64,000 nucleotides of DNA. Origin: Flavobacterium sp. 102. Its GTDB lineage: Bacteria; Bacteroidota; Bacteroidia; Flavobacteriales; Flavobacteriaceae. The stretch covers positions 3,038,001 to 3,102,000 of the forward strand of contig NZ_RBKX01000001.1 of the NCBI RefSeq assembly GCF_003634615.1. The letters are read 5' to 3'. This document shows positions 34,586 through 51,046 of the stretch, piece after piece. A model generated the notes under the pieces. That model did not search any database, was not told the origin of the DNA, and saw only the letters and a list, made by a program, of their open reading frames with translations. A program made the translations under genes and the position numbers. The stretch's first letter is position 1; every line of letters starts with the position of its first letter.

Positions 34586-34686
34586 ACCGTCAGCATAAAA
34601 TCTTATAAAAGACATACTTTAGTTGTTGTATCAATTTTTAAACTAAGAACTTTATTCAATCATTCAAAAGATAATTTACCAAGCTT

Positions 34687-35853
34687 ATGCAGGAAAGACA
34701 ACTTCTTGAAACCTGGAGAGAAGAATTTAAACAGCATCTAAATTCTATAAATATTTTTACTAGTTCAAATACTCAAACTGCTTTTTTTTATGAAAAATCA
34801 AAAAAAGAGATTTTTGATATTGGCTTTAATGTATTCAAATTATCGTCCGACTTATATTATAGAGAAAATTTCCATAGCGATATAATAAAGGCATTCCTTG
34901 ATCCTTCAGAAAAGCATAACGAGAAGACAAAATATTTGAATATTTTTATTGACTTATTAAATAAATCGGGGCATCATCAGCTAAATAAATATGATTTTGA
35001 AAATGCAATGGTAATTAGAGAAAGAAATAATATTGATATTCTCATAGCTGATGAAATTAGTACAAAAGCGATAATTATAGAAAATAAAATCAACAATGCT
35101 ATTGATCAAAAAAGACAACTACCAAGATACTTCAACACAATCAAAGAAAAATACAACGTAGAAGCAATAGTTTATCTGACACTTAACTCAACTAAACGAC
35201 CCGAAAAAAATGATTGGACTAAAGATGAAATATTACAAATAGAGCCTATTCTAAAGGTTATCCCATCTCTTGATAAATCATATCCAAATCTATTCCATGA
35301 TTGGATTGTACCGTCTATTATTGAAAGTAAAAACTCAGAGGGCTTATTTCTTCTACAACAATATGGTAATTTAATCAAACACATAAATTCTCAAACTATG
35401 GATACTATATCAGTCGAAAAATTTTACAATACCTTAAAAGAAAATGACAGCCTAAAAACTTCAATCTCCATTAGAAACATGCTTAATGATTTACCTGAAT
35501 ATATGGCAATTAGGATTGAAGATAAATACAAAAATCACTACTTCCCATTTTCTAAAATTTGGAGATATCAGCTCAGAGACTGTGTTTTTGAGTGCTTTGA
35601 CATGGAAGGCTTCACTGTCAAAATGGATATTTGGTGTGGGGAATACGGTTATAAAATTCATGTTTGGAATCCAAAAAATACTGAATTAGACATAAAGCAA
35701 AATTTACCGGAATTAGCCTGCATTTCTGATTTCACATATGATGGCGGAAAAGTCAATAATGTGTTTAAAGAATTTTCATTTTTTGAAGAAGAATTAGTTT
35801 TTGAGTTTATTGATCAAATTATTGCTCAACTCAAAACAGTAAAACTGGAATAA
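34687..35853 (+). CDS. PD-(D/E)XK nuclease superfamily protein (PDDEXK_4-like)
   Basis: 388 residues. The N-terminal part FHSDIIKAFLDPSEKHNEKTKYLNIFIDLL and the core NNIDILIADEISTKAIIIENKI give Asp117, Glu132 and Lys134, with QLPRY after them; this is the layout of the PDDEXK_4 group. Residues 270-388 form a second alpha/beta domain. Proteins of this family are frequent in defence islands, with unknown targets. It stands as a single gene. Confidence 0.75.
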   Translation: MQERQLLETWREEFKQHLNSINIFTSSNTQTAFFYEKSKKEIFDIGFNVFKLSSDLYYRENFHSDIIKAFLDPSEKHNEKTKYLNIFIDLLNKSGHHQLNKYDFENAMVIRERNNIDILIADEISTKAIIIENKINNAIDQKRQLPRYFNTIKEKYNVEAIVYLTLNSTKRPEKNDWTKDEILQIEPILKVIPSLDKSYPNLFHDWIVPSIIESKNSEGLFLLQQYGNLIKHINSQTMDTISVEKFYNTLKENDSLKTSISIRNMLNDLPEYMAIRIEDKYKNHYFPFSKIWRYQLRDCVFECFDMEGFTVKMDIWCGEYGYKIHVWNPKNTELDIKQNLPELACISDFTYDGGKVNNVFKEFSFFEEELVFEFIDQIIAQLKTVKLE

Positions 35854-35904
35854 TTCTAACGTTCAATTATTTACTGATGTAAAGTAACCTTCCAGTCACT
35901 CAAC

Positions 35905-36615
35905 ATGAAAGAAATTATAACTATAATTGAAAGTATAGACTCAAATATTCCAAATATCAATCCTACACAAATTTATAATGAAGGATGGATGACTCGCTTG
36001 TTAATCACTCTCTCAATTAAAGAAAAAGCAAAATTAAATGGTTTTGATTTTGGTAAAATTCCAAATTGGACATCCGAAGCGTTAGTTTCAAGCCCATTCA
36101 TAAAGGCATCAACAAAACGCGAAGGTTATACCCATGCAGATATTGTCTTTGGTGATTTTACTATTGATTACTCAATATCAGGTAAAATAAATGTAAATCA
36201 AGATGCTCAAATATTTGGTATTATAGAAGCAAAAATGGGTAGTTCTTTGAGTAAAGGAACAAGTAATGTCAAAGAATACAATCAAGCGAGTAGAAGTCTT
36301 GCGTGTATAAGTAGCCAACCGTATGATAATAACTCTAACATATTTTTTATAGTAGTCGCACCTGAGAACAAAATTGCCAAAATTAAAGAACAAATTACTT
36401 TGGAGAAATTGATTAAACAAATTGAGAATAGGTTTTCAGACTATCATGACGACTTCAAAATAACACAAAATATGAATTCAATAATATCCAAAGCAAAACA
36501 ATGTAAAGTATTAGCATGGAGTTACGAGGAATGGATTGAAGCGATTGCTAATCCGGACACAAAACAATTTTTGACAGATTTTTATGAAAAGACTAAAAAA
36601 TGGAACAGAGTGTAA
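35905..36615 (+). CDS. PD-(D/E)XK-type nuclease-fold protein
   Basis: 236 residues. NEGWMTRLLI (Glu26), EGYTHADIVFGDF (Asp79) and FGIIEAKMGSSL (Glu108, Lys110) form a full PD-(D/E)XK core; the later SRSLACISSQPYDNNSNIFFIVVAPE strand completes the fold. It is the fourth nuclease-fold gene in a row on this strand and lies 107 nt before the cysteine desulfurase, so it may be read into the phosphorothioation-like operon. Confidence 0.7.
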   Translation: MKEIITIIESIDSNIPNINPTQIYNEGWMTRLLITLSIKEKAKLNGFDFGKIPNWTSEALVSSPFIKASTKREGYTHADIVFGDFTIDYSISGKINVNQDAQIFGIIEAKMGSSLSKGTSNVKEYNQASRSLACISSQPYDNNSNIFFIVVAPENKIAKIKEQITLEKLIKQIENRFSDYHDDFKITQNMNSIISKAKQCKVLAWSYEEWIEAIANPDTKQFLTDFYEKTKKWNRV

Positions 36616-36722: not shown

Positions 36723-37856
36723 GTGAATCAAAATCAAACCATCTACCTAGACAATGCAGCAACTACCAAAGTAGACAATAGAGTCCTTGAGGCAATGCTC
36801 CCCTATTTCACCGAAATCTATGGCAACGCCTCTAGCAATCATACATTTGGAGAACTAGCCAAAAAAGCAATTGAAATGGCTCGAGAACAAACCGCTGCCA
36901 TTATCAACGCAAAAGCTTCGGAAATAACTTTTACCTCCGGGGCAACCGAAGCGATAAACTTAGCGCTAAAAGGCTATGTCGAGGCCAATATTGAGAAAGG
37001 CAATCACATCATAACAGTTAAAACCGAACACAAAGCGGTATTAGCCACTTGCGAATATTTAGAAGAGCGTGGCATTGAAGTCTCATATCTAAACGTAAAC
37101 CAAGAAGGTCTCATATCACTTCAAGAGTTGCAAGAAGCAATCCGTCCCGACACCATATTAATAGCAATAATGTATGTAAACAATGAGACCGGAGTGATAC
37201 AACCTATTGAAGATATTGGTAAAATAGCACACCAAAATAATATTGTCTTTTTTTGTGATGCTACCCAAGCCATAGGCAAAATTAAAGTAGATGTAGCCAA
37301 TGACAATATAGACATGCTATGCTTCAGTGGTCACAAATTTAATGGCCCAAAAGGCATTGGAGCGTTATACAAAAAGAAAGAAATACAACTAACTCCCCTC
37401 CTTCATGGCGGTGGTCAGGAAAATAATTTAAGAGGAGGCACATACAATACTCCGCTAATTGTTGGTTTGGGAAAGGCATGTGAAATTGCACAAAAGGAAT
37501 TAAAAATAAACGCTAGTGTCACAGAGGAAATAAGTATATACCTTAGCCAGAAAGTTAAGCAGATACCAAATTCAGTTATTATTGGAAGTGAAAAATTGAA
37601 GGCATATAATATTGTTGATGTTTTGATACCGGGATTAAATTCTGAGGTATTTATTGCAATGACTAGTAATTTATCGTTAAGCAATGGGTCGGCATGTACT
37701 TCACAAATTATTGAAAGTTCACATGTGTTAAAAGCAATGAAATTGGACGATCAAGAATGCAAGCAAACTATCAGAATATCAATTGACAAAACAATAACAA
37801 AAAATCAAATAGACGAATTAGTTAATACATTAAAAGTCGAAACAAGAAGTACTTAG
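36723..37856 (+). CDS. Cysteine desulfurase, DndA/IscS-like
   Basis: 377 residues starting at GTG. It is a class V aminotransferase-fold PLP enzyme: SGHKFNGPKG with PLP-binding Lys205, HGGGQENNLRGGTYN, and catalytic Cys325 in NGSACTS. It pulls sulfur from cysteine as a persulfide. It lies first in a tight + strand operon with nuclease/helicase genes and near a DndC-like gene, so it probably supplies sulfur for DNA modification (DndA role) rather than housekeeping Fe-S assembly. No iscU/sufE-type gene is nearby. The 1-nt gap to the helicase implies coupling. Confidence 0.88.
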   Translation: MNQNQTIYLDNAATTKVDNRVLEAMLPYFTEIYGNASSNHTFGELAKKAIEMAREQTAAIINAKASEITFTSGATEAINLALKGYVEANIEKGNHIITVKTEHKAVLATCEYLEERGIEVSYLNVNQEGLISLQELQEAIRPDTILIAIMYVNNETGVIQPIEDIGKIAHQNNIVFFCDATQAIGKIKVDVANDNIDMLCFSGHKFNGPKGIGALYKKKEIQLTPLLHGGGQENNLRGGTYNTPLIVGLGKACEIAQKELKINASVTEEISIYLSQKVKQIPNSVIIGSEKLKAYNIVDVLIPGLNSEVFIAMTSNLSLSNGSACTSQIIESSHVLKAMKLDDQECKQTIRISIDKTITKNQIDELVNTLKVETRST

Positions 37857-37857
37857 T

Positions 37858-40119
37858 ATGTTAAAAAATGTTACATGGGCGGAAGATAGGGATTATAAAA
37901 CTGGTAGTGAGGACGAACCATTACAATTCTATTTGGACGGATTGACTAATAGTATTGAATTTCATTTGTTATTAGGTTACTTCAGTTCTTCTGCCATCAA
38001 TTTATTGTCAGTAGGTTTTGCTACTTTTATAAGCAAAGGCGGAAAAATGAGAATGGTTATCAATCATTTACTTTCATCAAAAGACAAAGAAGCAATTAAT
38101 AAGGTTGAGGAAGGCAATACAAATGACTTAAAGGTTTTTGATTTAACTGATTCAAGTATTTTACATCGTTACTTAGATGAATATGACATTCACTTTTTTG
38201 AATGCTTAACCTATTTAATATCGCAAAAAAGAATAGAAATTAAAGTTATTAAACCAAAAAACGGAAAAGGAATTGCTCACTACAAATCCGGTGTTTTTAG
38301 CGATGGTGAAAATAATGTTGGTTATAAAGCATCTTGTAATTTTACGCTTTATGGTTTATCTGAAAATTTAGAGGAGCTTGAAGCATTTCTTAGTTGGGAA
38401 AATGGTAGGTCTAATAAACTAATAAAAAAGCAGCTTAACATTATTGATGACTATTTTAATGAAAAAGATGATGATGTAGATTATTTGCCAAGTAAAGATA
38501 TTGAAGTCGTATTAAAAGATAGATTTGGAAATAAAGACATTAATGAATTAATAGTTCAAGAAGAACAACTACTCAGAAAGAAACAAAATTTAATGTCATC
38601 AAATTCAAAAATAAAAAAAACTATATCCAATATTTTTGGTAAAATTGAAATTGAAAGAAAAACTCCAAAATTTCCATATGCAGAAGGTCCAAGAGACTAT
38701 CAGATAGAGGCATATAATAATTGGGTGAATAATGATAGAAAAGGATTGTTTGCTATGGCTACTGGTACTGGTAAGACACTTACTTCACTAAATTGTATTT
38801 TAGAAGATTTTAAATTATCGAATTTTTACAAATTTATAGTTCTTGTGCCTACAACCGCATTAACTAAACAATGGATTGAAGAAGCAAACAAAAAATTTAA
38901 TTATCAAAATACTATTTTATGTTGTAGTGAAAATAAAAATTGGAAATCAGAAGTTACTAATTTAGGAAAAAACATTCTTTTTGGTCGAGAGATTAATTAT
39001 GCTATTATAACTACTTATGCAACATTTAAAGGTGTTAGATTTCAATCAATGTTAAAAGAATATTTTACGGATGATTTTGCTAAAATGACTTTAATAGCTG
39101 ATGAAGCTCATAATTTTGGATCACAAGGATTTTTAAAAGTAATCCCTAATTTCATTAATAAAAGAATTGGTTTATCAGCTACTCCTGAAAGACAATTTGA
39201 CGATAATGGTAATAAATTGCTAAATGATTTTTTTTCATGTTCAGATGAAGAATACACGTTTGAATATAATATGAAAACAGCAATCGATAATGGAATATTG
39301 TGTAAATACTATTATTATCCTATTATAGTAAATTTAGAAATAGACGAACAAGAAAATTATCTCAAAATTTCAAAGGAATTAATGAAATATATTGACTTTG
39401 AAACAGGTAAATATAGAGAATCTGAATATGTAAATAATCTGCTCATAAAGAGAAAAAATATAATTCACAAAGCTAAAAACAAGTTGAATGCTTTGATTTC
39501 AATAATAAATAAAATTGGGAAAGAAAATTTCAAAAAAGCATTTATTTATGTCCCTGAAGGTATAGAATTTGACAGCATTGAAAATGAGTTTACTCCTCAA
39601 GAATTTGAAAATGAAACGAGTAAGATTATTGATAATTACATGATAGAAATCTACAATCATTTTCAAACGAAAATGGCAAAGTTTACCGGTGAAACAAATA
39701 ATAGAGACCAAATTTTAAGTCAGTTCAAGGAAGGACAATTAGATGCTTTACTTGCAATGAAGTGCTTAGATGAAGGTGTAGATGTTCCTCAAACTAAATA
39801 TGCTATTTTTTGCTCCTCTACCGGTAATCCAAGACAATATATTCAAAGGAGAGGGAGAGTATTAAGAACACACAAAGAAAAAGAATTTGCTATTATATAT
39901 GATTTAATTGTTAAGCCATCTTTAAGTCATACTAATACAGATGAAACTTTAACCAAAATGGAAAAGAACATTTTCTTATCTGAATTGAGAAGACTAGTAA
40001 ATTTTGCTGTATTAAGTGAAAACAAAGACCAATCATTAAAAGATTTAGAAACTCTTTGTTTTAATTTAGATATTGATATTTATGAATTAGCAAACAATGA
40101 ATTAAACAACTACAAATAA
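37858..40119 (+). CDS. PLD-domain SF2 helicase, candidate restriction enzyme
   Basis: 753 residues. Residues ~30-200 are a PLD-like nuclease domain (LLLGYFSSSAINLLS; HYKSGVFSDG at ~141; YKASCNFT). Residues ~280-690 are a superfamily-2 helicase: ATGTGKT Walker A near 301-307, DEAH at ~415, GLSATPERQF, and QRRGRVLR near 663. This nuclease-helicase fusion resembles HsdR-like and phage-defence helicases. It sits directly after the cysteine desulfurase and before a Rad50-like ATPase. Probable role: cutting or remodelling unmodified DNA. Confidence 0.85.
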   Translation: MLKNVTWAEDRDYKTGSEDEPLQFYLDGLTNSIEFHLLLGYFSSSAINLLSVGFATFISKGGKMRMVINHLLSSKDKEAINKVEEGNTNDLKVFDLTDSSILHRYLDEYDIHFFECLTYLISQKRIEIKVIKPKNGKGIAHYKSGVFSDGENNVGYKASCNFTLYGLSENLEELEAFLSWENGRSNKLIKKQLNIIDDYFNEKDDDVDYLPSKDIEVVLKDRFGNKDINELIVQEEQLLRKKQNLMSSNSKIKKTISNIFGKIEIERKTPKFPYAEGPRDYQIEAYNNWVNNDRKGLFAMATGTGKTLTSLNCILEDFKLSNFYKFIVLVPTTALTKQWIEEANKKFNYQNTILCCSENKNWKSEVTNLGKNILFGREINYAIITTYATFKGVRFQSMLKEYFTDDFAKMTLIADEAHNFGSQGFLKVIPNFINKRIGLSATPERQFDDNGNKLLNDFFSCSDEEYTFEYNMKTAIDNGILCKYYYYPIIVNLEIDEQENYLKISKELMKYIDFETGKYRESEYVNNLLIKRKNIIHKAKNKLNALISIINKIGKENFKKAFIYVPEGIEFDSIENEFTPQEFENETSKIIDNYMIEIYNHFQTKMAKFTGETNNRDQILSQFKEGQLDALLAMKCLDEGVDVPQTKYAIFCSSTGNPRQYIQRRGRVLRTHKEKEFAIIYDLIVKPSLSHTNTDETLTKMEKNIFLSELRRLVNFAVLSENKDQSLKDLETLCFNLDIDIYELANNELNNYK

Positions 40120-40120
40120 G

Positions 40121-40345
40121 ATGAAATCATTAAACGACTCATTAAGAGAAGAATTCGATGAAATTCTTGACAAGGAAGAATATAAGAAAATTATTAAGGA
40201 TAAAAATTTAGATTTAACTGTGTTAAAAAAAGCTTTTGATACACTTTTAAAATATAAGTCAGACGCAGAAGCTATTGACAAATCTAAAACAGAGTTTGAA
40301 AATTATTTAATTAACTATTTTAAAATTCAAAAAAATGATAATTAA
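40121..40345 (+). CDS. Small helical protein of the operon
   Basis: 74 residues, acidic/basic mixed, all-helical by eye (SLREEFDEILDKEEYKKIIKDKNLDLTVLKKAFDTLLKYKSDAEAIDKSK). No family recognised. It starts 1 nt after the helicase and overlaps the Rad50-like gene by 11 nt, so it is certainly in the operon. It may be an accessory subunit binding the coiled-coil ATPase. Confidence 0.7.
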   Translation: MKSLNDSLREEFDEILDKEEYKKIIKDKNLDLTVLKKAFDTLLKYKSDAEAIDKSKTEFENYLINYFKIQKNDN

Positions 40346-42461
40346 TAAAGTAGAGATTAATAATTTTTTCTGCTATGTAGGAGAAAATGTTTTTGAATTC
40401 GATAAGGGATTAAATATAATTTCTGCCAAAAATTCTGGAGGGAAATCACATTTTTTCAATGCTTTTCATTGGACCTTTTTTGATAATATTTATGTTGATA
40501 AGGAGTCAGACACTTCTAAGAAAGAATGGAAAGCAGCTTCTAAATTAAATATTTTACCTGACTATGTAATTGAAAATTCAAAAGACAATGATATATTAAA
40601 ATCTTCAATAAAAATCACTTTAACTGCCGAATTTCATAGAAATGAAGAGATTAAAAATGAACTAGTCGAATATCATTTTGAAAAAGAAATATCGTATAAA
40701 AAAAATGATAATGAGATATACCCAGTTTCTACAACAGAATTAAATATTTGGTATGTAAAAGATGGGGAAACATTTTTTCTAGAAAAAGGAGAACATAAAT
40801 GGTTTATTGATATTATATTTCCAGTCAGTATTCGAAAATTTATGTGGTTTCAGGGCGAGACAGTTGATGAATTATACGATTTCAGTAATCCTGCTACATT
40901 AAAATATGCAATCAATGAAATTTCATATTTTCCTGTTTATGAAAACTTAGTTAATGTAACTAAGAAATCCATAACTAGTATTAGCGATAAGATAGATAAA
41001 GAAGTTAAAAAATCGAAAAAACTATCTGAAGAACAAGAACGTGTTTTGAATAGTATAGAATATTCAAGAAATAGGATAAAATCTTTGGACGATAAAAAAA
41101 TTGAAGCACAGAATGAATTAGAAAATTTAAAAGAATCGATTTTCAAAGAAGAAGAGAAATTAAAAGGTCTTGACAAGTATTCAGATTTAAAAACTAAGCT
41201 TACTAAATATGAATATGAAATCAAGTCAATAAATGATAAAATTGAATCACTTTCAACATTTGGTAAAGAAAAATTTATATCAAAGTGGATGTTAAATAAA
41301 TGTGATGATTTAATTAAAGCTTCAAAGACTAATATAGATTTAATAGCTTCAGAAATTAAAAGTCAACAAAAAAATGAAAATCCAGTACCCATAACATTAC
41401 CAGGTCCAGAATATGTTCAGCAAATGCTTGATGATCATATTTGTTACATATGCGAACGTGAAGTTGAAGATAATTCTCCAGCATATTTTGCTCTTGAATC
41501 TCGAATGGAGGATTTTAAGAATAATCAAATACAAAAAATTCTTTCTGATAACTTAACAGAATTAAATAGGGCAAAACGTGGTCTTTTAAATGAGTTACCG
41601 GAAATATCACAAGAAGTGGAAAAGAATGATGCTGAAATTGAAAAATTAATTGCATTAAGAAAACGGACAATTACATTAAGGGATAATTTATTTTCAGATG
41701 CTGGGATTTCAAACGGTTCCGAAATTATGCTAGGTTCTGAGAGTGCAGAGAAAATATTGAACAAAATTAGAAGTCTGAATTCAAGCAAAACTGCAATCGA
41801 AAGAAGATTACAAGGTTATGATTCGGATAAACAATTTGAAGAAAGAAGCTTAGAAGATTTATTAATTAAAAAGTCAAAATTTATTACCGATACAGAAGGT
41901 AGCGATATTTCAGAAGTAGAAGCTCAAAAATACATTAGCTTAATTCACAGTGTATTAGTAGATTTAAAATCTGAAGCTTTAAGTAATCTTATAAATGAAA
42001 TCACTATTGAAAGTAATAAGCTTTATACTAAGTATTTAGGAGGTAAAACACAAGGAGAAATTGAAATTGATAGAGGTGTTAGAATAATTGACAAAGTAAC
42101 ACGCAAATCATTGTCAAATTTAAATACAGCTGAATTAACAGCTCAAAAATTAGCTGTTGCTAATTCCTTTTTGTCGTTAAGCGAAAAGAAAATGAATCGT
42201 TCATTTCCTTTACTAGCTGACGCACCGACATCTCAATTTGACGATGATAACACACTTTTTTTAACTGAAAACTTATCAGATTCATTCGATCAAATAATTA
42301 TTATGTCTAAAGATTACAATAACCTTAAAGGAGTTGAAAGGGATGAGTTTATCAAAAAAGCTAAGATTAGTAAATACTATGAATTAAATAATGATTTGAT
42401 AGATAAATCAGGGCCTGATTCTAGAACAAATAAAAAAACATTTAAAAATGTTATAAAATAA
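40335..42461 (+). CDS. Rad50/DndD-like ATPase with zinc-hook motif
   Basis: 708 residues with SMC layout. The N-terminal half ABC domain (INNFFCYVGENVFEFDKGLNIISAKNSGGKSHFFNAFHW) has a Walker A of the form NSGGKS. Long coiled coils (~215-300, 380-460) flank a CYIC pair near 370 that could bind zinc. The C-terminal half has LNTAELTAQKLAVANSFLSLS as a degenerate signature and PLLADAPTSQFDDDN as Walker B/D-loop. DndD is the SMC-like ATPase of DNA phosphorothioation; this protein has that layout but I cannot tell DndD from other Rad50-like defence ATPases. Confidence 0.8.
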   Translation: MIINKVEINNFFCYVGENVFEFDKGLNIISAKNSGGKSHFFNAFHWTFFDNIYVDKESDTSKKEWKAASKLNILPDYVIENSKDNDILKSSIKITLTAEFHRNEEIKNELVEYHFEKEISYKKNDNEIYPVSTTELNIWYVKDGETFFLEKGEHKWFIDIIFPVSIRKFMWFQGETVDELYDFSNPATLKYAINEISYFPVYENLVNVTKKSITSISDKIDKEVKKSKKLSEEQERVLNSIEYSRNRIKSLDDKKIEAQNELENLKESIFKEEEKLKGLDKYSDLKTKLTKYEYEIKSINDKIESLSTFGKEKFISKWMLNKCDDLIKASKTNIDLIASEIKSQQKNENPVPITLPGPEYVQQMLDDHICYICEREVEDNSPAYFALESRMEDFKNNQIQKILSDNLTELNRAKRGLLNELPEISQEVEKNDAEIEKLIALRKRTITLRDNLFSDAGISNGSEIMLGSESAEKILNKIRSLNSSKTAIERRLQGYDSDKQFEERSLEDLLIKKSKFITDTEGSDISEVEAQKYISLIHSVLVDLKSEALSNLINEITIESNKLYTKYLGGKTQGEIEIDRGVRIIDKVTRKSLSNLNTAELTAQKLAVANSFLSLSEKKMNRSFPLLADAPTSQFDDDNTLFLTENLSDSFDQIIIMSKDYNNLKGVERDEFIKKAKISKYYELNNDLIDKSGPDSRTNKKTFKNVIK

Positions 42462-42922
42462 TGGAAAAGCTATTTACAGAAATAAACAAGAGAAATGTTC
42501 ATTATGGAAACTATGTTGAACAAATTAAAGATTTATTTGCTCGCAAGCAAGAATCGTTAAAAAAACAAGATGATAAATTCTTTTCTAAATATTGGCAGGT
42601 TTATGCATGGGCTGCAATTATTGGTTTTAAAAATGATAAAAGAGAAGAAGGAGCCGATTTACCATTTCAATCTTCTTTTCAATATCAAATGATAACTAAT
42701 GGTTCTGATACAATTGCTAATGGACTATTGCTAATGGCTATAGGGAAAGTTAAAACTAAAGAAGTTAAAGATATATTAAACTCAAGAAAATTATTAACTG
42801 TTATTAGTGAATATGCAGAAGGCGGAGCAAAACATATTCTTGAGATAAGACAAACTCCTGGTTTTGAGCGTAAATTTGATAGTCCAGACGATTATTTAAT
42901 AGAAATTATTAAACGTAAATAA
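42461..42922 (+). CDS. Uncharacterised protein in DndE position
   Basis: 153 residues overlapping the ATPase stop by 1 nt. Clear helical segments with conserved-looking aromatic/Gly patches: FSKYWQVYAWAAIIGFKNDKREEGADLPF and ISEYAEGGAKHILEIRQTPGFE. It does not show the DndE pattern I know. In place and size it could be the DNA-binding small subunit of the complex. Confidence 0.75.
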   Translation: MEKLFTEINKRNVHYGNYVEQIKDLFARKQESLKKQDDKFFSKYWQVYAWAAIIGFKNDKREEGADLPFQSSFQYQMITNGSDTIANGLLLMAIGKVKTKEVKDILNSRKLLTVISEYAEGGAKHILEIRQTPGFERKFDSPDDYLIEIIKRK

Positions 42923-42926
42923 GAGC

Positions 42927-43325
42927 ATGATGATAGCTGAAGAATTTATAAATAATTTAAAAAGAGATAAAGCTAGAGGAAGTCTTGCTCCTCATCAGAT
43001 AATTTTGTTAATATCACTTTTTAGAATTTATAACAAAAACGAAAAAAAAATTACTGATATTTTAATTTTGAACAATGAATTTCAGGAGGTATGGTATAAT
43101 TTTAAAAGTGAGTTTAAATCAACTAACAATAAATTAGGTTTACCTCTAAAAGCTTTTGTGAACAAAGGGTATTTAACAATTGGAACTAATGATCAAATAT
43201 TTGATTTTAGAAATCTTTCAGAACTTGAATCTAAAATTTCTAAATTAGAAATGCAAGACATTTTAATTGCATTATTTAAAGTAGATAAAATTGAAGATTA
43301 TCTGATTAGTAGAATTAAAAAATGA
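42927..43325 (+). CDS. Small protein resembling a sulfur-binding-domain (SBD)-like N-terminal domain
   Basis: 132 residues. SLAPHQIILLISLFRIYNKN...INDILIL-type start, then a middle ...EFQEVWYNFKSEF...LGLPLKAFVNKGYL... follow the outline of the APHKPLLLL...PFxxL domain found at the N-terminus of many HNH restriction enzymes and of ScoMcrA-type enzymes, where it reads phosphorothioated DNA. The match is by pattern only: His-Gln replaces His-Lys and the PF element is altered. No HNH domain follows. It lies 4 nt after the 153-residue gene and overlaps the small HTH gene by 4 nt. Confidence 0.6.
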   Translation: MMIAEEFINNLKRDKARGSLAPHQIILLISLFRIYNKNEKKITDILILNNEFQEVWYNFKSEFKSTNNKLGLPLKAFVNKGYLTIGTNDQIFDFRNLSELESKISKLEMQDILIALFKVDKIEDYLISRIKK

Positions 43326-43468
43326 AAAATTCTGAAAAATGGTTAACCTCTACAGAAACAAAATCCCTTCTAAAAATAAGTGATTGTAAACTAATGCACT
43401 TACGAATAAAAGGTAAAATTGAATTTAAAAAAGAGGGAAAATCATTTTATTACTTAGTTTCTAAATAA
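43322..43468 (+). CDS. 48-residue excisionase-like helix-turn-helix protein
   Basis: The frame starts at the ATGA overlap with the preceding stop and reads MKNSEKWLTSTETKSLLKIS-, ending KGKIEFKKEGKSFYYLVSK. It has the winged-helix HTH_17 outline (LTSTETKSLLKIS...LRIKGKIEFKKEGKSFYY) seen in excisionases and small regulators. It is the last gene of the + operon and overlaps the convergent gene by 8 nt. It could be a regulator of the locus. Confidence 0.65.
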   Translation: MKNSEKWLTSTETKSLLKISDCKLMHLRIKGKIEFKKEGKSFYYLVSK

Positions 43469-43847
43469 CAAAACTCTTAACATAACCTATAGCTTCGTCT
43501 AAGGTATCGAAAGCCACATTAGCAGATTCTTGGCAAATAGAAAAATACCTCTTAAAAACTTCATCATGTTCAGAGCGTTCGTCTACAAGAATAATTAATT
43601 TATTCATTGCTTTAGCATACCCAATCTCTAAAGCTAAACCATATCCTGATGGATTATCTCTAGACATATAACCAAATAAAATATCACATTTTTCAACATG
43701 ATATAAGTCCCATGATGTGTACTTTTCAACATCATTTAAATCATGTTTTTGAGGGTTAAAACAGATAAAATCAGAACCTAATTTCTCAATTACAATATCA
43801 TGCCATCCACCTTTAAATCCTCCCGCTAAATATATCTTTGTTTTCAT
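43461..43847 (-). CDS. Nucleoside 2-deoxyribosyltransferase-like protein
   Basis: 128 residues. IYLAGGFKGGWHD, ILFGYMSRDNPSGYGLALEIGYA (with Glu74 in the place of the catalytic Glu) are the family signature. These enzymes break or swap the glycosidic bond of deoxynucleosides; relatives cut other N-glycosides. It is the last gene of the DUF4007-ATPase-DndC-membrane protein operon, 3 nt after the membrane-protein gene. In that place a role as nucleotide-depleting effector is possible, as is nucleotide salvage. Confidence 0.78.
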   Translation of the reverse strand: MKTKIYLAGGFKGGWHDIVIEKLGSDFICFNPQKHDLNDVEKYTSWDLYHVEKCDILFGYMSRDNPSGYGLALEIGYAKAMNKLIILVDERSEHDEVFKRYFSICQESANVAFDTLDEAIGYVKSFVI

Positions 43848-43850
43848 TTT

Positions 43851-44537
43851 CTATAAATTTGAAAAAGGAATTCGCATTGCCTTAGGGAAAAAAAAGCGTT
43901 TAGAGTTTCCTAACAATGGTACTGAAATTAACATACTTAAATAAATATATTTATACTGAATATCATCTTTGAGTAATTCAATAGAAGTAAATAATTGGAT
44001 TAGATAAATGAAAAGGACTAACATAAATATAGTTGAAACATGATCGAAAATTGATGACCTAAACATAAAAGTATAAATAGTCTCAGATTGTGTTGGATTC
44101 TTAGACATTAAGATATTTCTAACTTCATTAATTTCCATTGTATCTATTGTTGGGTATTCAACCTTCAATTTTGCAATAGCTGCCTCATAAAGTTTGGAAT
44201 TCTTAAATTGTTCTTTCCATTCTTCACTATGTCGCTTTTTAAAAAATCGTGTTATAAAATTATCTCGACTATAATTTAAATAAATAATAAACTTAATCAA
44301 TCTATCTTGCAAATAAATCTTATATTTTGTAAAACTATATACTAAATAACCTAAAACATAAGAAACTATAACAACTAAACTAGTTCCAAAAACCTCCCAA
44401 TCAATTAAAAAATCATCATACTCAAACTCTCTTTTATCAAGGCAAAAATTAAACACAATTAATAAAAATGCCCCAGGAATTAAATAACCGATAATATCCC
44501 AAACAAACTCTTTCAATGATTCCATCATTTTTTCCAT
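43851..44537 (-). CDS. Four-span membrane protein of the YLIPG type
   Basis: 228 residues. Membrane helices ~12-30, ~45-66, ~163-182 and ~195-210 with a large cytosolic loop between the second and third (ITRFFKKRHSEEWKEQFKN...). It starts LKEFVWDIIGYLIPGAFLL, like the protein at 32364. It lies 10 nt from the DndC-like gene and 3 nt from the deoxyribosyltransferase-like gene, so all three share a transcript. A membrane effector paired with a nucleoside-acting enzyme is one reading. Confidence 0.7.
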   Translation of the reverse strand: MEKMMESLKEFVWDIIGYLIPGAFLLIVFNFCLDKREFEYDDFLIDWEVFGTSLVVIVSYVLGYLVYSFTKYKIYLQDRLIKFIIYLNYSRDNFITRFFKKRHSEEWKEQFKNSKLYEAAIAKLKVEYPTIDTMEINEVRNILMSKNPTQSETIYTFMFRSSIFDHVSTIFMLVLFIYLIQLFTSIELLKDDIQYKYIYLSMLISVPLLGNSKRFFFPKAMRIPFSNL

Positions 44538-44547
44538 GATTTACCTT

Positions 44548-45675
44548 TTAAATAAAACAACTAGCACAGCCCTCCCCTTCAGACAGCAAGATTTCATCTT
44601 GCCAGCTAGTAGAAGTTTTGGCGTTTTGTTTGTTACGATTCATTCTTATATAATGTTCTCTCTTAATAGCATTAACACGCTCCGGTTTTTTCAATTCCCC
44701 TAGCGGCTCTTCCATCCAGGTATACCCTTCCTTTTCATAAACTATCGCAGCCTCATACAATTCAGGGTGTTGCTCAAGTAACCATACCCATTCTATTTTT
44801 TGTTGGTAAAAACAAAAGAAACAACCGGAGCGACTACGAGCATAGGTGCCATGTTTGAGTTCTCCATCAATTTCAACAGTGTATGCTATAGGTTTATAGT
44901 AAGCAGGTATTCCTACGCCACTCTCATCTAAAATTTTAAAGACATCATCTATCCCCAGGTTCTCATCATTGTCAATCAACGAAAACGAATCCAATTTACC
45001 CACAGGATAATCAGTCGTTTTAAGCCACTCAAAAACCACTCGATTAAACAGTTTCACATCAGCATCCAATAAGGCATTCAACTTTTGTTTCAAAGTATAA
45101 CGCATAGAAATAGGTTGAGAAACATAATTCAAAATCAACTCAAGGTTGATGGGACCTAACTCAGTATACTTGACAACTATAAAGTCCAAGTTAGTATTGG
45201 CCAAAAACTTCTTAACCACATCTTCACTCCAAATATTTTTTCTAAAAGGAAAGATAGACTGTATGTTTTCTCGCTTCGAGATATAACCTTCACGATTTTC
45301 ATCACCTCTAATACCAACATAAGAAATTGTTGGAGTATCCCCTATTTCATTTTCAAAAGGCTCCAGTTTCATTTTACCGGTACACCACCTTGCAGTAGCC
45401 GAAGGCAAATAACCACCATACATCGCTAAGAAATGATCAAACGGGTTTTTTTCCGGTGAATTAACTTCATCAATTGATTTATACAGTTTAATGTTTTTAC
45501 CCAGTACAGAATTCAACTTCCCAATCAAATCATAGGTCTCAGTCAATTCTTTACCGGTATCACAAGTATAGTATTCAACATCAATATCTGAATGTTTTTG
45601 GCTCATATAAATAGCCAAAGCAGCACTATCTTTACCACCGGATATGCCTAAAACATGTTTTATTTCACTCATCAC
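44548..45675 (-). CDS. PAPS-reductase/DndC-like sulfurtransferase
   Basis: 375 residues. Residues 10-17 are the PP-loop GISGGKDS for ATP. Candidate Fe-S or sulfur-carrying Cys are at 38 (YTCDTGKE), 98 (ARWCTGKM), then SRSGCFFCFYQQ and the C-terminal GCASCFI (370/373). DndC and SspD are PAPS-reductase-like enzymes that adenylate DNA backbone for sulfur insertion. The gene is 2 nt from the large ATPase. Together with the cysteine desulfurase on the other strand it is the best evidence that this locus thio-modifies nucleic acid. Confidence 0.88.
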   Translation of the reverse strand: MMSEIKHVLGISGGKDSAALAIYMSQKHSDIDVEYYTCDTGKELTETYDLIGKLNSVLGKNIKLYKSIDEVNSPEKNPFDHFLAMYGGYLPSATARWCTGKMKLEPFENEIGDTPTISYVGIRGDENREGYISKRENIQSIFPFRKNIWSEDVVKKFLANTNLDFIVVKYTELGPINLELILNYVSQPISMRYTLKQKLNALLDADVKLFNRVVFEWLKTTDYPVGKLDSFSLIDNDENLGIDDVFKILDESGVGIPAYYKPIAYTVEIDGELKHGTYARSRSGCFFCFYQQKIEWVWLLEQHPELYEAAIVYEKEGYTWMEEPLGELKKPERVNAIKREHYIRMNRNKQNAKTSTSWQDEILLSEGEGCASCFI

Positions 45676-45677
45676 TA

Positions 45678-48600
45678 CTATAGATTAGTATTCATTTCTA
45701 ATGACAATAATTCAAAAAGCAATTGCTTACGCTTATCAGTATCTAAAATAATTAATTTTTCAGTCAGTTCTTTTTTGACACCCGAATAAGCGCCATTCAC
45801 TTTGGAGTCAATCACTATTCTTTCTTTTATCAAATCGCCACGCTCAGAGACAAATTCAAAAGAAACCAATTTATCACTACTGAGCTTATTAAACTCATGG
45901 ATTGCCGAAGATTTAATCAACCCGGTCATAAATGCTTTAATATTGTTCATCAACAACACCTCTTCTTCATCAATCATTTTATCAATAGACTTGCCCAAAG
46001 CCACATCAGCAATCGACTTTAACCAAGAAACCCTATCATCTAAAGGCGAAAATACCCGCTTAAAAAAGATGCCTTGTTCGGTACTTAATAAACTTGAATC
46101 AATACTTCTTAGTTTATTAGTGATATTGTTTTTATAAGCAATAAAGTCCTGCCCTTTGCTGTCGATGGATTCTAATATAGTGCGTTCAACCCTGTCAATC
46201 AATCCATCGTAACAGCTTCTCAATTCACGAATAGCATCTTGAATATGAAGAGTATAATTTTTCAAAACTTCTTCATCATCCTTAATGGAAAGACTATGAA
46301 ATCCTAGCGCAGCCGGAAACTGATTAAATAAGGCATCTTCTGGGTCTTTAGCGGTCTTAATAGCTTCCCGTAGTTTTATAGCTTTATCTGATAATTTTTT
46401 GGTATTAATCGTATAGTCGTTTAAACTTCGGTAAAAACGCAAGAAATTGCCAAAGATGGATAAAAAGGTGCTTTGAGTACCCTTACCTTCCTCACTTACA
46501 TTAACCATCTCTTTATAGCCTTCCAATAAATTAATATTCAACCCGGTTACATCATAGCTTTTTATCGAATAGTTGTGAGCGGATTTATGAATCATATCCA
46601 ATACATCCTCAGAAATGTAAGGTACGAAACCATTAGTCTCATGAAACAAAGCATAATCCTCTTTTTTGATAATCAAAAATAAAGGTATCCAAAACTCAAC
46701 AAATCCCTTTTTCAATTTGAAAGGTTTCGTTTTAAGCACTTCATAAAGCTCCCCTAAATTTCTTTTAGAAGATTTAGCAGAGGCTAGAAAAGCATTACAG
46801 GTAGTCCACAAGGGAGTAAAAGTACCTTCAAGCGGCGGTGCATATTGATAAACACCATCTACTTCTCGATGTATTGTTGATTGCTTCAGCAAACTCAAAT
46901 AAATAGATTTTTCAGGAGGAAATCTACTAACTTCAAAACCCAATAAAGCATCATTTTCAAATTCCAGCACTTTACGCATCAAGAATTTACGCGCCGTATT
47001 AATCTGAGGACTAAGATTTTCCCGATTAAACAACTCATTTTTTAATATAGGAGCATCACCAAATTCTCGGTCGCAAATTTCAGACAACAGGCTGTTCAGT
47101 TCTTTGCGGGATTGCACAGTTCTGGAACCGCCATTATAGAACCATAAATTCTCTTTGGCATCATTATAAAGGTTTTGCAATACAAGCCAATGTAATTTAT
47201 TTACATGATGCTGCAATTCTTCGTTAAGTAGCTTTAAGGCATTTACATCCCTAACAAACTTGTTTAACAGAAGCTTATATTTATTGATAGTGAATATCTC
47301 ATTATAAATTGCATCCGAATTTTTATAAAGCACAAAGAGATTAGTCTGCGATTCCGAAGAGATTCTCTTAACATCTTTGCCTTTAATTTTCGAATTAAAG
47401 ATAAGATTGATATACCCATCAATAGCGCCTTCGGCATAACGTATATCGTTCAAATCATTCAAAATCCGATATTCAAAATACCTAGGGGTTCCGGTTAAAA
47501 AAGAATGACGTTTTGCATTTTCAACTGGAAACGTTATCAACCTCCCTAGTTCTTCGGATATCGAAAAATTAGCATCAATCTCCTTGGTGATATTAGTCAA
47601 CTCCTGCTCTATATCAATATCAGTCCCTTCTAAAAAGTTAAGCTTATGACTGTGCTTGTAAAATCTTATAATACCTGATTGCTCAAGTTTTTCAATAGAA
47701 TCCCTGATAAAATCAGAGGAATAAGAAGTCGTAAGAGAGAGGTAAATGGAGGCAAACTCTTTGTCAAATTTCCCACCGGCTTTACCAAAAATAGTAACCA
47801 AACAAATAGTCTTAATAATTTCGGCAGCTACTGCATAATCGTCAGTAAAGTACAACTCTGCGCGCTCTAGTGCCCTCATAGAAGACAACCACTGTGGTCG
47901 GTGTGGATTACTATAATTTTGTATATCACTCGAAAGAGTCTGAATCAAATAATCATAAACAGCGGTTACATTAAAAAAAGGATTCGCTATTGTATCTTTT
48001 AACGCTTCAAACTCATTCAGAAACGAAAACAAAGACCTTTCATTTTGTCCATAACGTTGAAGTGATTGTACTAGCATATTAGCAGACAGCCAATCAAGCG
48101 GATACAACCTCTCGGTAAGATTACCGTGTCCACTTTGAGTGAAGGCTACCAAATGTGATTTTGAAATGGCGTCATTTAATGAAGCAAAATCTTTCTTTAA
48201 GGTTGCAGCTATACTGATTTTCTCAAGTTGCTTACTGGCAAAAAACAATAACTGCTCAACAGGTTCATTAAACAATAGCTCAACAAACCTTCCTTTAATT
48301 TTTTCCCATTCCTGTCTATCAACAAGATCTAACGACGAGGAATAAGAAATAAAATTTTGATGAAGTGTGATGATAAAATAAGCGTTTTTATCAAGGTCAT
48401 TGGCCCATTCAGAAACTAACTGTAAAAGATACAAATCATTGCTCTTCTTGTTTTTATTGATATGCTCTAGGAATTTTCCAAACTCATCAATTAAGATGAC
48501 AAAGCCATTCTTTTTTTTATCAGCAGCAACCCTGCGTTTTTCAAGCGCATCAATAATATCTCTTGAGGACGAAACAGTGTCAAGCCCTAAGGCTTTCTGA

Positions 48601-48893
48601 AAGGCAAAGGTCAAACTCGTAGCATCACCTATAAGCTTTAAAATTTGATACGATTGGTATCTTTCATTGGCTTTAGTGCTGAAATAAATTTTCTTTTTCA
48701 GAAGATTCTTTTCAAGAGCCCATAAAAAAGTAGACTTACCGGTACCATAATTACCTATAATCGTAAAAGACCTATTAGCACTGTTCTCACTACTAAAAAT
48801 TCGTTCAAATATCTTAGTGGCATTAGGAGTCACTACATAATTCAAATCCTTACTTTGATCGCGTACGATGTTGGTGGATATATTAAACTCCAT
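45678..48893 (-). CDS. Large P-loop ATPase of the phosphorothioation-like locus
   Basis: 1071 residues. GNYGTGKST (47-55) is Walker A and VILIDEFGKF (~132-141) Walker B; the remaining ~900 residues are a mostly helical body without an assigned domain. The layout recalls BrxC/PglY-like or DptH-like AAA proteins of defence systems, but no PglZ or BrxL is present. It overlaps the DUF4007 gene by 11 nt and precedes the DndC-like gene by 2 nt. It probably couples ATP hydrolysis to target scanning or gating. Confidence 0.8.
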   Translation of the reverse strand: MEFNISTNIVRDQSKDLNYVVTPNATKIFERIFSSENSANRSFTIIGNYGTGKSTFLWALEKNLLKKKIYFSTKANERYQSYQILKLIGDATSLTFAFQKALGLDTVSSSRDIIDALEKRRVAADKKKNGFVILIDEFGKFLEHINKNKKSNDLYLLQLVSEWANDLDKNAYFIITLHQNFISYSSSLDLVDRQEWEKIKGRFVELLFNEPVEQLLFFASKQLEKISIAATLKKDFASLNDAISKSHLVAFTQSGHGNLTERLYPLDWLSANMLVQSLQRYGQNERSLFSFLNEFEALKDTIANPFFNVTAVYDYLIQTLSSDIQNYSNPHRPQWLSSMRALERAELYFTDDYAVAAEIIKTICLVTIFGKAGGKFDKEFASIYLSLTTSYSSDFIRDSIEKLEQSGIIRFYKHSHKLNFLEGTDIDIEQELTNITKEIDANFSISEELGRLITFPVENAKRHSFLTGTPRYFEYRILNDLNDIRYAEGAIDGYINLIFNSKIKGKDVKRISSESQTNLFVLYKNSDAIYNEIFTINKYKLLLNKFVRDVNALKLLNEELQHHVNKLHWLVLQNLYNDAKENLWFYNGGSRTVQSRKELNSLLSEICDREFGDAPILKNELFNRENLSPQINTARKFLMRKVLEFENDALLGFEVSRFPPEKSIYLSLLKQSTIHREVDGVYQYAPPLEGTFTPLWTTCNAFLASAKSSKRNLGELYEVLKTKPFKLKKGFVEFWIPLFLIIKKEDYALFHETNGFVPYISEDVLDMIHKSAHNYSIKSYDVTGLNINLLEGYKEMVNVSEEGKGTQSTFLSIFGNFLRFYRSLNDYTINTKKLSDKAIKLREAIKTAKDPEDALFNQFPAALGFHSLSIKDDEEVLKNYTLHIQDAIRELRSCYDGLIDRVERTILESIDSKGQDFIAYKNNITNKLRSIDSSLLSTEQGIFFKRVFSPLDDRVSWLKSIADVALGKSIDKMIDEEEVLLMNNIKAFMTGLIKSSAIHEFNKLSSDKLVSFEFVSERGDLIKERIVIDSKVNGAYSGVKKELTEKLIILDTDKRKQLLFELLSLEMNTNL

Positions 48894-49764
48894 AATAATT
48901 TTGCAATAATCTTAATTTAAAATCTTCATTCTCAATTTTCAATTGAAGCTGTCGGGTTCCGGCATCCTCATTGTAAATAAACTCAGGATACTTAGAACGC
49001 AGCCTATCAATTACAACCTCAAGTCCTTCATTCGTTAAAACAAAATAAGACCCCAAAGTATCCCTGATATCTTTAAAGTTGACAGCAGCATCATTTCCAA
49101 ACAAATCAACCAAACAATACCCAAAAATCTCACTAGGAAAAGTCACCCTATCCTCTTTATTCAACTTATAAGTAGTAAGACCATTTCCTCTGTTAACCGC
49201 TGAAATTAGATTCAATTCAATCAAGGGAGAATTAAAATCATCCTCCAAGGATTTAGCAGTTCTGATACCGGAAAAATAACTTTGTGTAAAGACCTTAAAA
49301 TCAGACTGCAAGGTACTCTCGCTTGTTTCTCGATTACTGGTCTCAGCAATTTTTAATTTAAGAAAATTTAAAATTTGCCTTTCATCAAACTCACTGCTAA
49401 TACGTTCCCTTGCATAATCCGTAAAAATCAATTTAAAAATACTGGCTTCCTGCTGTTTACAAAGAAGATACTGCAATAGCCACAACGTGCCCTCGTCTTC
49501 TAAATACTTATCAAAACCACCATTTTGCACAAAAAGTATATCAGCGATTTCTGTTAGGTGTTTTTCATTATTAATAAGTCCGAAAGCCTTCATCCAATAT
49601 TGAATAGCTTGAACCATATTTTTACCAACCCCTAAATTCAAGATAGATTCTTCGAGATTATGAAATCCATTAAGTTCTTGATTATTAATAAGTTCTACAC
49701 CTTTCAACAACCACTGTTGTCGACAATGAAAGGTATCATGACCCGAAAATTTTAATGTATGCAT
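48883..49764 (-). CDS. DUF4007-family protein
   Basis: 293 residues. The start MHTLKFSGHDTFHCRQQWLLKG with LNLGVGKNMVQAIQYWMKAFGLI is the DUF4007 signature. From memory of defence-island surveys, DUF4007 genes often sit beside DndC-like PAPS reductases and large ATPases. It is the first gene of the - strand operon. A DNA-binding or recruiting role is the common guess; nothing here proves it. Confidence 0.85.
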   Translation of the reverse strand: MHTLKFSGHDTFHCRQQWLLKGVELINNQELNGFHNLEESILNLGVGKNMVQAIQYWMKAFGLINNEKHLTEIADILFVQNGGFDKYLEDEGTLWLLQYLLCKQQEASIFKLIFTDYARERISSEFDERQILNFLKLKIAETSNRETSESTLQSDFKVFTQSYFSGIRTAKSLEDDFNSPLIELNLISAVNRGNGLTTYKLNKEDRVTFPSEIFGYCLVDLFGNDAAVNFKDIRDTLGSYFVLTNEGLEVVIDRLRSKYPEFIYNEDAGTRQLQLKIENEDFKLRLLQNYYGV

Positions 49765-50082: not shown

Positions 50083-50274
50083 ATGAACGAAGGAACCATT
50101 AAATTTTACAATGAAGCCAAAGGCTTCGGATTTATTACGCCAAGCAATGGCGGAGCAGACTTATTTGTACATGCAACCGGTCTTAACGGCCAAGTGCGTG
50201 AAAACGACAAAGTGTCTTATGAGGTAACGGACGGTCAAAAAGGGCCAACCGCAACCAATGTAAACGTTATCTAA
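50083..50274 (+). CDS. Cold-shock domain protein, copy 1
   Basis: 63 residues, a single cold-shock domain. KGFGFI (RNP1) and LFVHAT (RNP2) provide the RNA/ssDNA-binding face. It probably acts as an RNA chaperone. It is almost identical to the copy at 52139 (two residue differences, TD for SN). Upstream sequence AATCAATAATAAAGACTACC is also shared; this could contain its leader/thermosensor. Confidence 0.95.
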   Translation: MNEGTIKFYNEAKGFGFITPSNGGADLFVHATGLNGQVRENDKVSYEVTDGQKGPTATNVNVI

Positions 50275-50469: not shown

Positions 50470-51045
50470 ATGAATAAGTTAGAGGAATTAAAAAAACATT
50501 TAAAACGGGGTAAAGTATACCGTCGGGCTGATTTGTCCAAGTGGTCAAAATCAGTTGACCGTCACCTTGAGGAATTGGTTCAGGAAGGAACCTTGCAAAA
50601 GCTTTCACAGGGTGTATACTTTTATCCGGAGTTAACCGTCTTTGGAGAAGCACCTCCCGAAGAGGAAGTATTGGTACGCTCATTCCTCAAAGACACACGT
50701 TTCTTGCTTACTTCCTTTAATGCTTACAATGCTTTAGGTGTTGGAACCACACAGCTTTACAACACCAAAACCGTGTACAACCACAAGCGCCATGGTGAGT
50801 TTAAGCTCGGTGGAGTGACTTTTACTTTTAAAAGAAAGCCTCATTTCCCTCTTAAAGCTACGCCTGAATTCCTATTGGTAGACTTACTGAATAACCTGGA
50901 CCAACTTGCAGAAGACCCAAACGAAGTAGTATCAAGAGTGTGTTTCAAGGCAAAAACAATGGATGCGAAAAAATTAAGAAATTCACTCCGCGACTACGGT
51001 AGCATCAAAGCAAAAAAACTGTTGGAACCGGTTCTATCCGCATAA
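50470..51045 (+). CDS. abiEi: AbiEi-type antitoxin (DUF6088-like)
   Basis: 191 residues. Residues ~10-65 form a winged helix (GKVYRRADLSKWSKSVDRHLEELVQEGTLQKLSQGVYFYP) for binding its operator. The C-terminal part follows the AbiEi antitoxin layout (LLTSFNAYNALGVGTTQLYNTKTVYN...). In type IV systems it counteracts the nucleotidyltransferase without touching it directly and represses the promoter. It lies 1 nt before abiEii. Confidence 0.85.
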   Translation: MNKLEELKKHLKRGKVYRRADLSKWSKSVDRHLEELVQEGTLQKLSQGVYFYPELTVFGEAPPEEEVLVRSFLKDTRFLLTSFNAYNALGVGTTQLYNTKTVYNHKRHGEFKLGGVTFTFKRKPHFPLKATPEFLLVDLLNNLDQLAEDPNEVVSRVCFKAKTMDAKKLRNSLRDYGSIKAKKLLEPVLSA

Positions 51046-51046
51046 T

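Follow-up and report, generated by a model that had tools for sequence, protein, structure and literature searches.

An SspABCD-type phosphorothioation writer beside a PbeABCD effector module in Flavobacterium sp. 102

What kind of phosphorothioate (PT) locus pairs sulfur-mobilizing and sulfur-transferring enzymes with a large ATPase and a DUF4007 protein, and which effector does it serve? The locus that raises this question occupies positions 36,723 to 49,764 of a 64,000-nucleotide stretch of Flavobacterium sp. 102 DNA (the whole stretch analyzed, referred to here as the window), the genome of which is a single contig of 3.8 Mb. Profile searches of its genes lead to a well-supported answer: the locus is an SspABCD–PbeABCD hybrid, in which a known PT writer is joined to a different known effector. 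The unusual part of the locus is its effector partner, PbeABCD, beside an Ssp writer.

Writer and effector genes

The genes form two convergent operons, 36723-43325 on the plus strand and 49764-43461 on the minus strand, whose final stop codons are separated by 135 nt. PADLOC, Pfam, and NCBIfam profiles gave the order SspA, PbeA, a 74-aa protein, PbeC, a PbeD-like protein, and a 132-aa protein for the plus operon, and SspB, SspC, SspD, a membrane protein, and a nucleoside 2-deoxyribosyltransferase-like (NDT-like) protein for the minus operon. Because the minus operon is SspBCD, and the plus operon carries SspA together with PbeABCD, the locus is read as a hybrid of the two systems. The evidence for each assignment is given in brackets.

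36723..37856, plus strand: SspA/DndA-type cysteine desulfurase, 377 aa, heading the effector operon (PADLOC, Aminotran_5)
37858..40119, plus strand: PbeA, an HKD (phospholipase D, PLD) nuclease domain fused to a superfamily 2 (SF2) helicase, 753 aa (PADLOC)
40121..40345, plus strand: PbeB-like small protein, 74 aa (position and size only)
40335..42461, plus strand: PbeC, an ABC ATPase with a coiled coil and a CxxC hook, 708 aa (PADLOC, gene order)
42461..42922, plus strand: PbeD, 'Dnd system-associated protein 4', 153 aa (TIGR04062, below cut-off)
42927..43325, plus strand: orf132, a stand-alone protein with a predicted sulfur-binding-domain (SBD) fold and candidate PT reader, 132 aa (predicted fold)
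43461..43847, minus strand: NDT-like protein, 128 aa, probably accessory (PF15891)
43851..44537, minus strand: membrane protein, 228 aa, probably accessory (hydrophobic segments in its sequence)
44548..45675, minus strand: SspD, a PAPS-reductase-like (3'-phosphoadenosine-5'-phosphosulfate reductase-like) sulfurtransferase, 375 aa (PADLOC)
45678..48893, minus strand: SspC, an AAA+ ATPase, 1071 aa (PADLOC)
48883..49764, minus strand: SspB (DUF4007), the DNA-recognizing/nicking subunit, 293 aa (PADLOC, PF13182, PDB)

Judged by its sequences, the writer is a canonical SspABCD: a standard SspBCD set fills the minus operon, and the cysteine desulfurase SspA heads the plus operon. SspB scored 334 bits against the PADLOC SspB profile and 236 bits against PF13182, matched the PDB entries 6juf/6lb9 ('SspB') at E 7e-11, and is the sole match in the genome; a scan of viral contigs for SspB confirmed no relative. 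SspC reached 1168 bits with its P-loop, GNYGTGKS, intact, while SspD (PADLOC SspD, 281 bits) keeps its SGGKDS motif, is the single PAPS_reduct match of the whole genome, and had no relative in the PDB up to an E-value of 0.01. SspA was matched by PADLOC SspA and DndA at 496 and 489 bits, respectively, as well as by Aminotran_5, and retains the catalytic-Cys loop (GSAC); its closest other match within the genome is 39% identical, with further class-V matches elsewhere. The GSAC loop, the P-loops, the SGGKDS motif, and the CxxC hook of PbeC are what we take to be the functional motifs of these enzymes. A hallmark of SspABCD systems is PT on one strand of host DNA, at CCA. None of the ORFs here was best called DndC, DndD, or DndE, the one PAPS reductase match of the genome being SspD. 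The domain type of SspE, which is a DUF262-DUF1524 protein (PMC12707154), was also sought, and no GmrSD_N match was found anywhere in the genome by a search that was positive in 8 of 14 control genomes. Among the locus ORFs, PADLOC called neither SspE nor SspFGH, the SspFGH models being unconfirmed in the library and the genome not having been searched for SspFGH.

The effector genes comprise an HKD-helicase and an ABC ATPase set in the order A-B-C-D that defines a PbeABCD module. PbeA scored 1046 bits against its PADLOC profile and 406 bits against TIGR04095 (dnd_restrict_1), under the cut-off of 600. In an alignment of 81 proteins, its HKD residues are nearly invariant among filled rows (H141, 77/78; K143, 78/79; D149, 75/78; N161, 78/78), and its helicase motifs are conserved likewise. 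As far as residues can tell, this pattern agrees with the published argument that PbeA is an HKD nuclease (Rakesh 2024, PMC10853773) and sits uneasily with a report in which cleavage of viral DNA by PbeABCD was not seen (Xiong 2019, PMC6459918). The ABC ATPase carries a CYIC hook and an SGGKS P-loop, and is called PbeC rather than LmuB because of gene order. The 74-aa protein had no PADLOC match and was assigned as PbeB-like from its position and size; a clustered ORF of 54-82 aa directly follows PbeA in 28 of 97 loci, unclustered ORFs of less than 90 aa being hidden from this count. PbeD was matched by TIGR04062 at 24.5 bits (cut-off 74), and two of its homologues carry the name Dnd system-associated protein 4. 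Published work links PbeD to DndE (PMC10853773), a link that profile comparison (probability 0.5%) neither confirms nor excludes; the only PDB match of PbeD was a ribosomal protein (E 0.024). Partial homologues of PbeA, 42-45% identical, were also seen in two phage-labelled records from human faecal samples (MT835926 and MT837093), which may be bacterial contigs.

A preliminary description of this DNA had found SspB unrecognizable and had DUF4007 and the large ATPase standing in for missing components. As DUF4007 is the SspB family itself, this main puzzle dissolves: the two proteins are SspB and SspC, and a replacement of SspB by DUF4007 is ruled out by the PADLOC SspB, PF13182, and SspB PDB matches. 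The remainder of that description held up better. The ORF coordinates and hidden Markov model (HMM) identities bear out a PT-type locus made up of two convergent operons, and HMMs recovered the desulfurase, the PLD-type helicase (its PLD part through the HKD residues), the ABC and AAA+ ATPases, the PAPS-reductase domain, the NDT-like fold, and DUF4007. Likewise, no DndB-like ORF is present at the locus of the window, although a sister locus has a DndB homologue (see below), and the suggestion of a less-described branch among known PT systems is supported. Small proteins do follow the Rad50-like ATPase, but as two ORFs of at least 60 aa (153 and 132 aa) rather than three; the tight packing by overlaps proved mixed, with overlaps of 11, 1, and 11 nt and gaps of 1-10 nt elsewhere. 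Promoter and terminator scans remained at the level of shuffled sequence (71 vs 70.4 and 6 vs 5.7, respectively).

Recurrence of the Ssp–Pbe pairing

The pairing of SspABCD with PbeABCD recurs, and this conclusion is well supported. Among 395 Bacteroidota genomes, including that of the window, PbeA was found in 10, SspC in 22, and both in 7. When the genome of the window is excluded, the counts become 9 and 21, with both in 6 of 394 genomes where 0.48 would be expected (hypergeometric p 8e-7, without correction for relatedness). In all six co-occurrences, PbeA and SspC share a contig, at a separation of 1.6-8.6 kb; two of these genomes (G167 and G270) are distant (PbeA 30% and SspC 26-27% identical), yet SspB and SspD are also found in the neighbourhood. 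The remaining PbeA genomes (G021, G184, and G355) have DndCDE beside PbeA. No PbeA was found in 15 of the 22 SspC-matching genomes, and some of the weaker SspC matches may be BREX (bacteriophage exclusion) relatives.

A wider survey scanned GTDB with the PbeA alignment and annotated the best 80 of 378 loci, ranked by similarity to the query and thus not an unbiased frequency, using HMMs derived from clusters of the ORFs found in these loci. Eleven loci (L121-L131) were rejected as encoding other helicases, with PbeA-profile scores of 102-302 and no PbeC-type ABC ATPase found. Next to PbeA, 28 of the 69 remaining loci have an Ssp/BrxP-type writer, 17 have DndCDE, 24 have neither within the fetched stretch, and none has both. 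The 28 Ssp-type loci comprise 12 from Bacteroidota and 16 mostly from Bacillota, the latter including one Fusobacteriaceae, one Acholeplasmatales, one Methanobrevibacter metagenome-assembled genome (MAG) contig, and two unassigned; SspB, SspC, and a PAPS reductase were all found in 20 of the 28. In the Bacillota-type loci, SspB, SspC, SspA, and PbeA share one direction, and the PAPS reductases form a cluster that resembles BrxP in the one member tested (L075, 268 bits). DndC was rejected as the identity of the Bacillota c5 protein, the same tested member scoring 268 vs 48 bits. Pooled with six loci from the phylum sample, two from a genus sample, and the window, the survey yields 37 Ssp-type loci, in 26 of which a desulfurase directly precedes PbeA.

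A PbeA tree of 81 proteins was built by quick search, with 19 of 78 forks left open; L040 (477-aa PbeA) and L113 (split PbeA) were omitted from it, and L005 (one internal stop) from the alignment A1. Ssp and Dnd labels require 3 changes on this tree, and all three labels require 13, compared with 36.9 in shuffles. The Ssp rows fall into a Bacteroidota clade (19 plus one unresolved), a Bacillota-centred clade (16 plus one unresolved), and L039. So few changes indicate that two deep clades have kept the Ssp pairing stably. PbeA distances also correlate with SspC distances (r 0.76 over 31 loci, SspC pieces of less than 780 aa omitted; 0 of 2000 permutations as high), with a contribution from deep phylum structure. 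Writers that have PbeA (32 rows of the SspC tree) and those that lack it (7) are intermixed within Bacteroidota, suggesting that writers also change effectors. The preliminary description had named a failure of the two operons to travel together as a refuting condition; the check was run, and co-occurrence, adjacency, the PbeA tree, and distance correlation came out in favour of co-travel.

The nearest relative of the locus, L052, belongs to an uncultured Bacteroidetes MAG and shows how the parts may move. Its PbeA-D proteins are 95-97% identical to those of the window, whereas SspA (66%), orf132 (69%), SspD (85%), SspC (in part, 59%), the NDT-like protein (88%), and the membrane protein (45%) are less so. 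Near 37,900, where SspA meets PbeA, nucleotide identity climbs from 0.71 to 0.95; the drop past PbeD, near 42,900, is less sharp. From this pattern, loci whose writer alleles differ have probably exchanged PbeABCD as a cassette, in one event seen in one locus pair. Between its operons, L052 also carries a weak GIY-YIG protein (176 aa) and the DndB homologue (417 aa, PF14072) at 15612-17392, a cassette that the window lacks. The same two-gene cassette is found in L038, L047, L053, L063, and L091, which are Ssp loci with or without Pbe (the L052 members were those tested).

A candidate reader and the proposed mechanism

How PbeABCD tells self from non-self was left to speculation in the study that described it (Xiong 2019, PMC6459918). 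The last gene of the plus operon offers a candidate answer. The best matches of the predicted orf132 model are PT-bound SBDs, which take ranks 1-3 in Foldseek and ranks 1-6 in VIA-align, where the alignments span 127-130 of 132 residues; a profile search of the PDB returned a single match, also an SBD. The predicted model has the SBD fold, which is partly common to winged helices. In the literature, the sulfur cavity is formed by H116, R/K117, Y164, P165, and A168 in ScoMcrA and by Y31, Q32, Y78, P79, and A82 in SprMcrA (PMC6224610, PMC7470945). The putatively equivalent positions of orf132, placed by sequence alignment of 77 rows, are H23 (76/77), Q24 (77/77), L or M72 (77/77), P73 (77/77), and A76 (73/77), and Q is used in the SprMcrA cavity too (PMC7470945). 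By HMM, 7 of the 36 Ssp-type loci on the tree have an SBD-like protein after PbeD, as against 0 of the 22 Dnd-type loci; cluster membership alone adds an eighth Ssp-type locus, L060. We propose, inferring both role and sign with the predicted model as a guide, that orf132 is a built-in PT reader that would keep PbeABCD off self DNA. Across five loci, the identity of orf132 tracks neither SspC nor PbeA clearly, and thus no co-evolution of reader and writer is claimed. A Flavobacterium Dnd-type locus (L148:1-3500, L135) encodes, directly after a DndC-like gene, an HNH protein whose front part is SBD-like, possibly a PT-reading nuclease beside a PT writer.

Taken together, we read the locus as one phage-defence system (probability roughly 0.7), in which an SspABCD writer, a PbeABCD restriction module, and an orf132 reader shielding self DNA would act in concert. 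SspA would draw sulfur from cysteine and hand it to SspD; by analogy, SspB would nick at a short motif and SspC drive insertion, leaving PT on one host DNA strand. We infer this writer chemistry from work on SspABCD elsewhere (PMC8092258). Scanning would fall to PbeC and PbeD, while PbeA, a translocase whose HKD nuclease site is intact, would attack and cut DNA without the PT mark; orf132, bound to PT on self DNA, would hold the module off that DNA. In archaea, PT-modified SNJ1 virus escaped PbeABCD (PMC6459918), which argues that PT marks self for this effector.

Several observations weigh against this reading. Concerning the effector, the failure to see viral DNA cleavage has been mentioned, and Rakesh 2024 (PMC10853773) doubts PbeABCD as a replacement restriction module; PbeB is identified by position alone, and the PbeC candidate scores higher against the Lamassu protein LmuB (90 bits) than against PbeC (80 bits). 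Concerning the pairing, 24 of the 69 loci have PbeABCD without a PT writer in reach, several on short contigs; the writer is incomplete in 8 of the 28 Ssp-type loci (L052, L055, L056, L057, L062, L065, L079, and L082), mostly where the contig or the fetched stretch stops, and one writer gene each of L055 and L057 looks broken or unrecognized. Two Dnd-type loci (L115 and L118) have a desulfurase before PbeA too. Concerning the reader, orf132 is 14-16% identical to SBDs, Cdc6-type winged helices match its model nearly as well, and Q stands at the usual K/R cavity position, where R117Q weakened binding by ScoMcrA (PMC6224610, PMC7470945). Most Ssp–Pbe loci in the survey show no orf132, and the SBD-like protein of L058 lacks the cavity histidine.

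The alternative that survives best concerns the last two genes of the minus operon, which are probably an accessory pair. They could instead constitute a separate fail-safe, a nucleotide-processing enzyme with a membrane effector carried in the writer operon, which we regard as possible, if the lesser prospect. The NDT-like protein matches PF15891 at 36.7 bits (cut-off 30), and its homologues adjoin SspD, or lie one gene away, in L037, L047, and L052. The membrane protein partners it in the window and L052, while L037 and L047 have an unnamed ORF of 212 aa nearby. The membrane protein has 70 homologues; among the matches listed, 6 of its 56 contigs of at least 2 kb (that of the window included) agree in exact length with an orf132 contig and 6 with a PbeD contig. 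However, phmmer found the NDT-like protein in 3 of 97 loci and the membrane protein in 1 of 97.

Somewhat less probable, and in our estimate unlikely, is that orf132 is a winged-helix-type DNA-binding protein, acting as an operon regulator or a Pbe subunit with no sulfur reading. The near-equal Cdc6-type matches are compatible with this, but SBD structures lead both rankings over almost the whole chain, the sole PDB profile match is an SBD, and Q24 and P73 are invariant, with H23 and A76 nearly so, in a putative cavity for which SprMcrA provides a Q-containing precedent. A lower chance still is given to PT sensing, in which orf132 would bind PT and switch PbeABCD on, such that loss of the writer would silence the system. 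PT stimulates SspE, an effector coupled to this kind of writer (PMC8092258), and the SBD-like fold of orf132 would suit such a role; the escape of PT-modified SNJ1 virus argues instead for PT as a self mark. That two independent defence systems merely sit side by side is quite improbable, for although AbiE, PLD, and PD-(D/E)XK genes lie nearby, PbeABCD loci with no writer in reach exist, and the SspC tree is mixed, PbeA and SspC co-occur far over expectation and adjacently every time, two writer types never flank one PbeA, the pairing is repeated in two deep clades, and the desulfurase so often stands immediately before PbeA.

Relation to known systems and neighbouring genes

The SspABCD-SspE and SspABCD-SspFGH systems (Wang 2021, PMC8092258) have the same writer of SspA, SspB (DUF4007), SspC, and SspD; unlike in SspABCD-SspE, the adjoining effector here is PbeABCD, and no SspE-type match is present in the genome. 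DndCDEA-PbeABCD (Xiong 2019, PMC6459918) shares the effector order PbeA-PbeB-PbeC-PbeD, whereas the writer here is SspABCD, of the one-strand type, rather than DndCDE, and an extra SBD-fold protein is present. PbeABCD has been published as an effector of the Dnd writer and also described beside methylases. In BREX type 4 (brxPCZL, PMC11931770), BrxC is matched by SspC at 214 bits and BrxP weakly by SspD and SspB, and the PAPS reductase of the Bacillota-type locus L075 is BrxP-like; the effector here, however, is PbeABCD. With the SBDs of ScoMcrA, SprMcrA, and Hga (PMC6224610, PMC7470945; PDB 5zmo, 7ccd, 8h0l), orf132 shares its predicted fold and putative cavity positions, but it has no nuclease domain and lies in a PT-system operon rather than in a type IV enzyme that cleaves PT-modified DNA.

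A search of the open-licence literature, subscription papers being outside its scope, found no description of SspBCD paired with PbeABCD. A 2024 comparative genomic study classes PbeABCD among CxC-type systems and regards Ssp as a separate variant system (PMC10853773). Earlier counts left many of both unpaired: 2,211 of 2,678 sspBCD loci were without sspE and sspFGH (Wang 2021, PMC8092258), and 320 of 553 PbeAC pairs were without DndCD, 155 of these lying near a possible DNA-modifying enzyme (Xiong 2019, PMC6459918). The SspBCD–PbeABCD pairing may provide a partner for part of both sets, and suggests that PbeABCD can also be served by another kind of PT writer, one that marks a single strand. 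Should orf132 read PT, it would give a direct handle on self/non-self discrimination by a PT-based restriction module. Tentatively, and at a little short of even odds, SspABCD-PbeABCD may represent a third class of Ssp defence in Bacteroidota and Bacillota (plus one Methanobrevibacter MAG contig), to which the Flavobacterium form adds a dedicated SBD PT reader, with writer, reader, and effector as separate, exchangeable parts.

To the left of the locus (33857-36615) lie a DrmC-like PLD protein, a PDC-S26-like PD-(D/E)XK nuclease, and an unnamed 236-aa ORF. Given the PLD and PD-(D/E)XK neighbours, the locus seems to sit in a defence island; PADLOC returned nothing at E 1e-5 for ten other large ORFs of the window. 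Farther right, two nearly identical 63-aa ORFs (50083-50274 and 52139-52330), presumably cold-shock proteins by their appearance, flank an AbiEi/AbiEii pair (50470-51997), as though the pair had been brought in with a duplication.

Other candidate partners of the Ssp writer were encountered in the survey. In L048 (2443-13300), and also in L044, L045, and L049, a shorter PbeA-like helicase (514-549 aa) accompanies a HATPase-cluster protein (510-640 aa; MzaB-like in L048), with a PLD-cluster protein of ~320 aa in three of the four (HMM test on the L048 members). In L048, SspA heads this set, which converges on SspBCD, as in the window; the set is possibly another Ssp effector in Bacteroidota. 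Next to SspD in L046, L050, and L065, a GmrSD_N (DUF262) cluster protein is followed by a Ser/Thr-kinase cluster protein (L050 members tested). A HATPase-cluster protein is also found in L046 and L050, and in L065 the GmrSD_N/kinase pair occurs together with PbeABCD.

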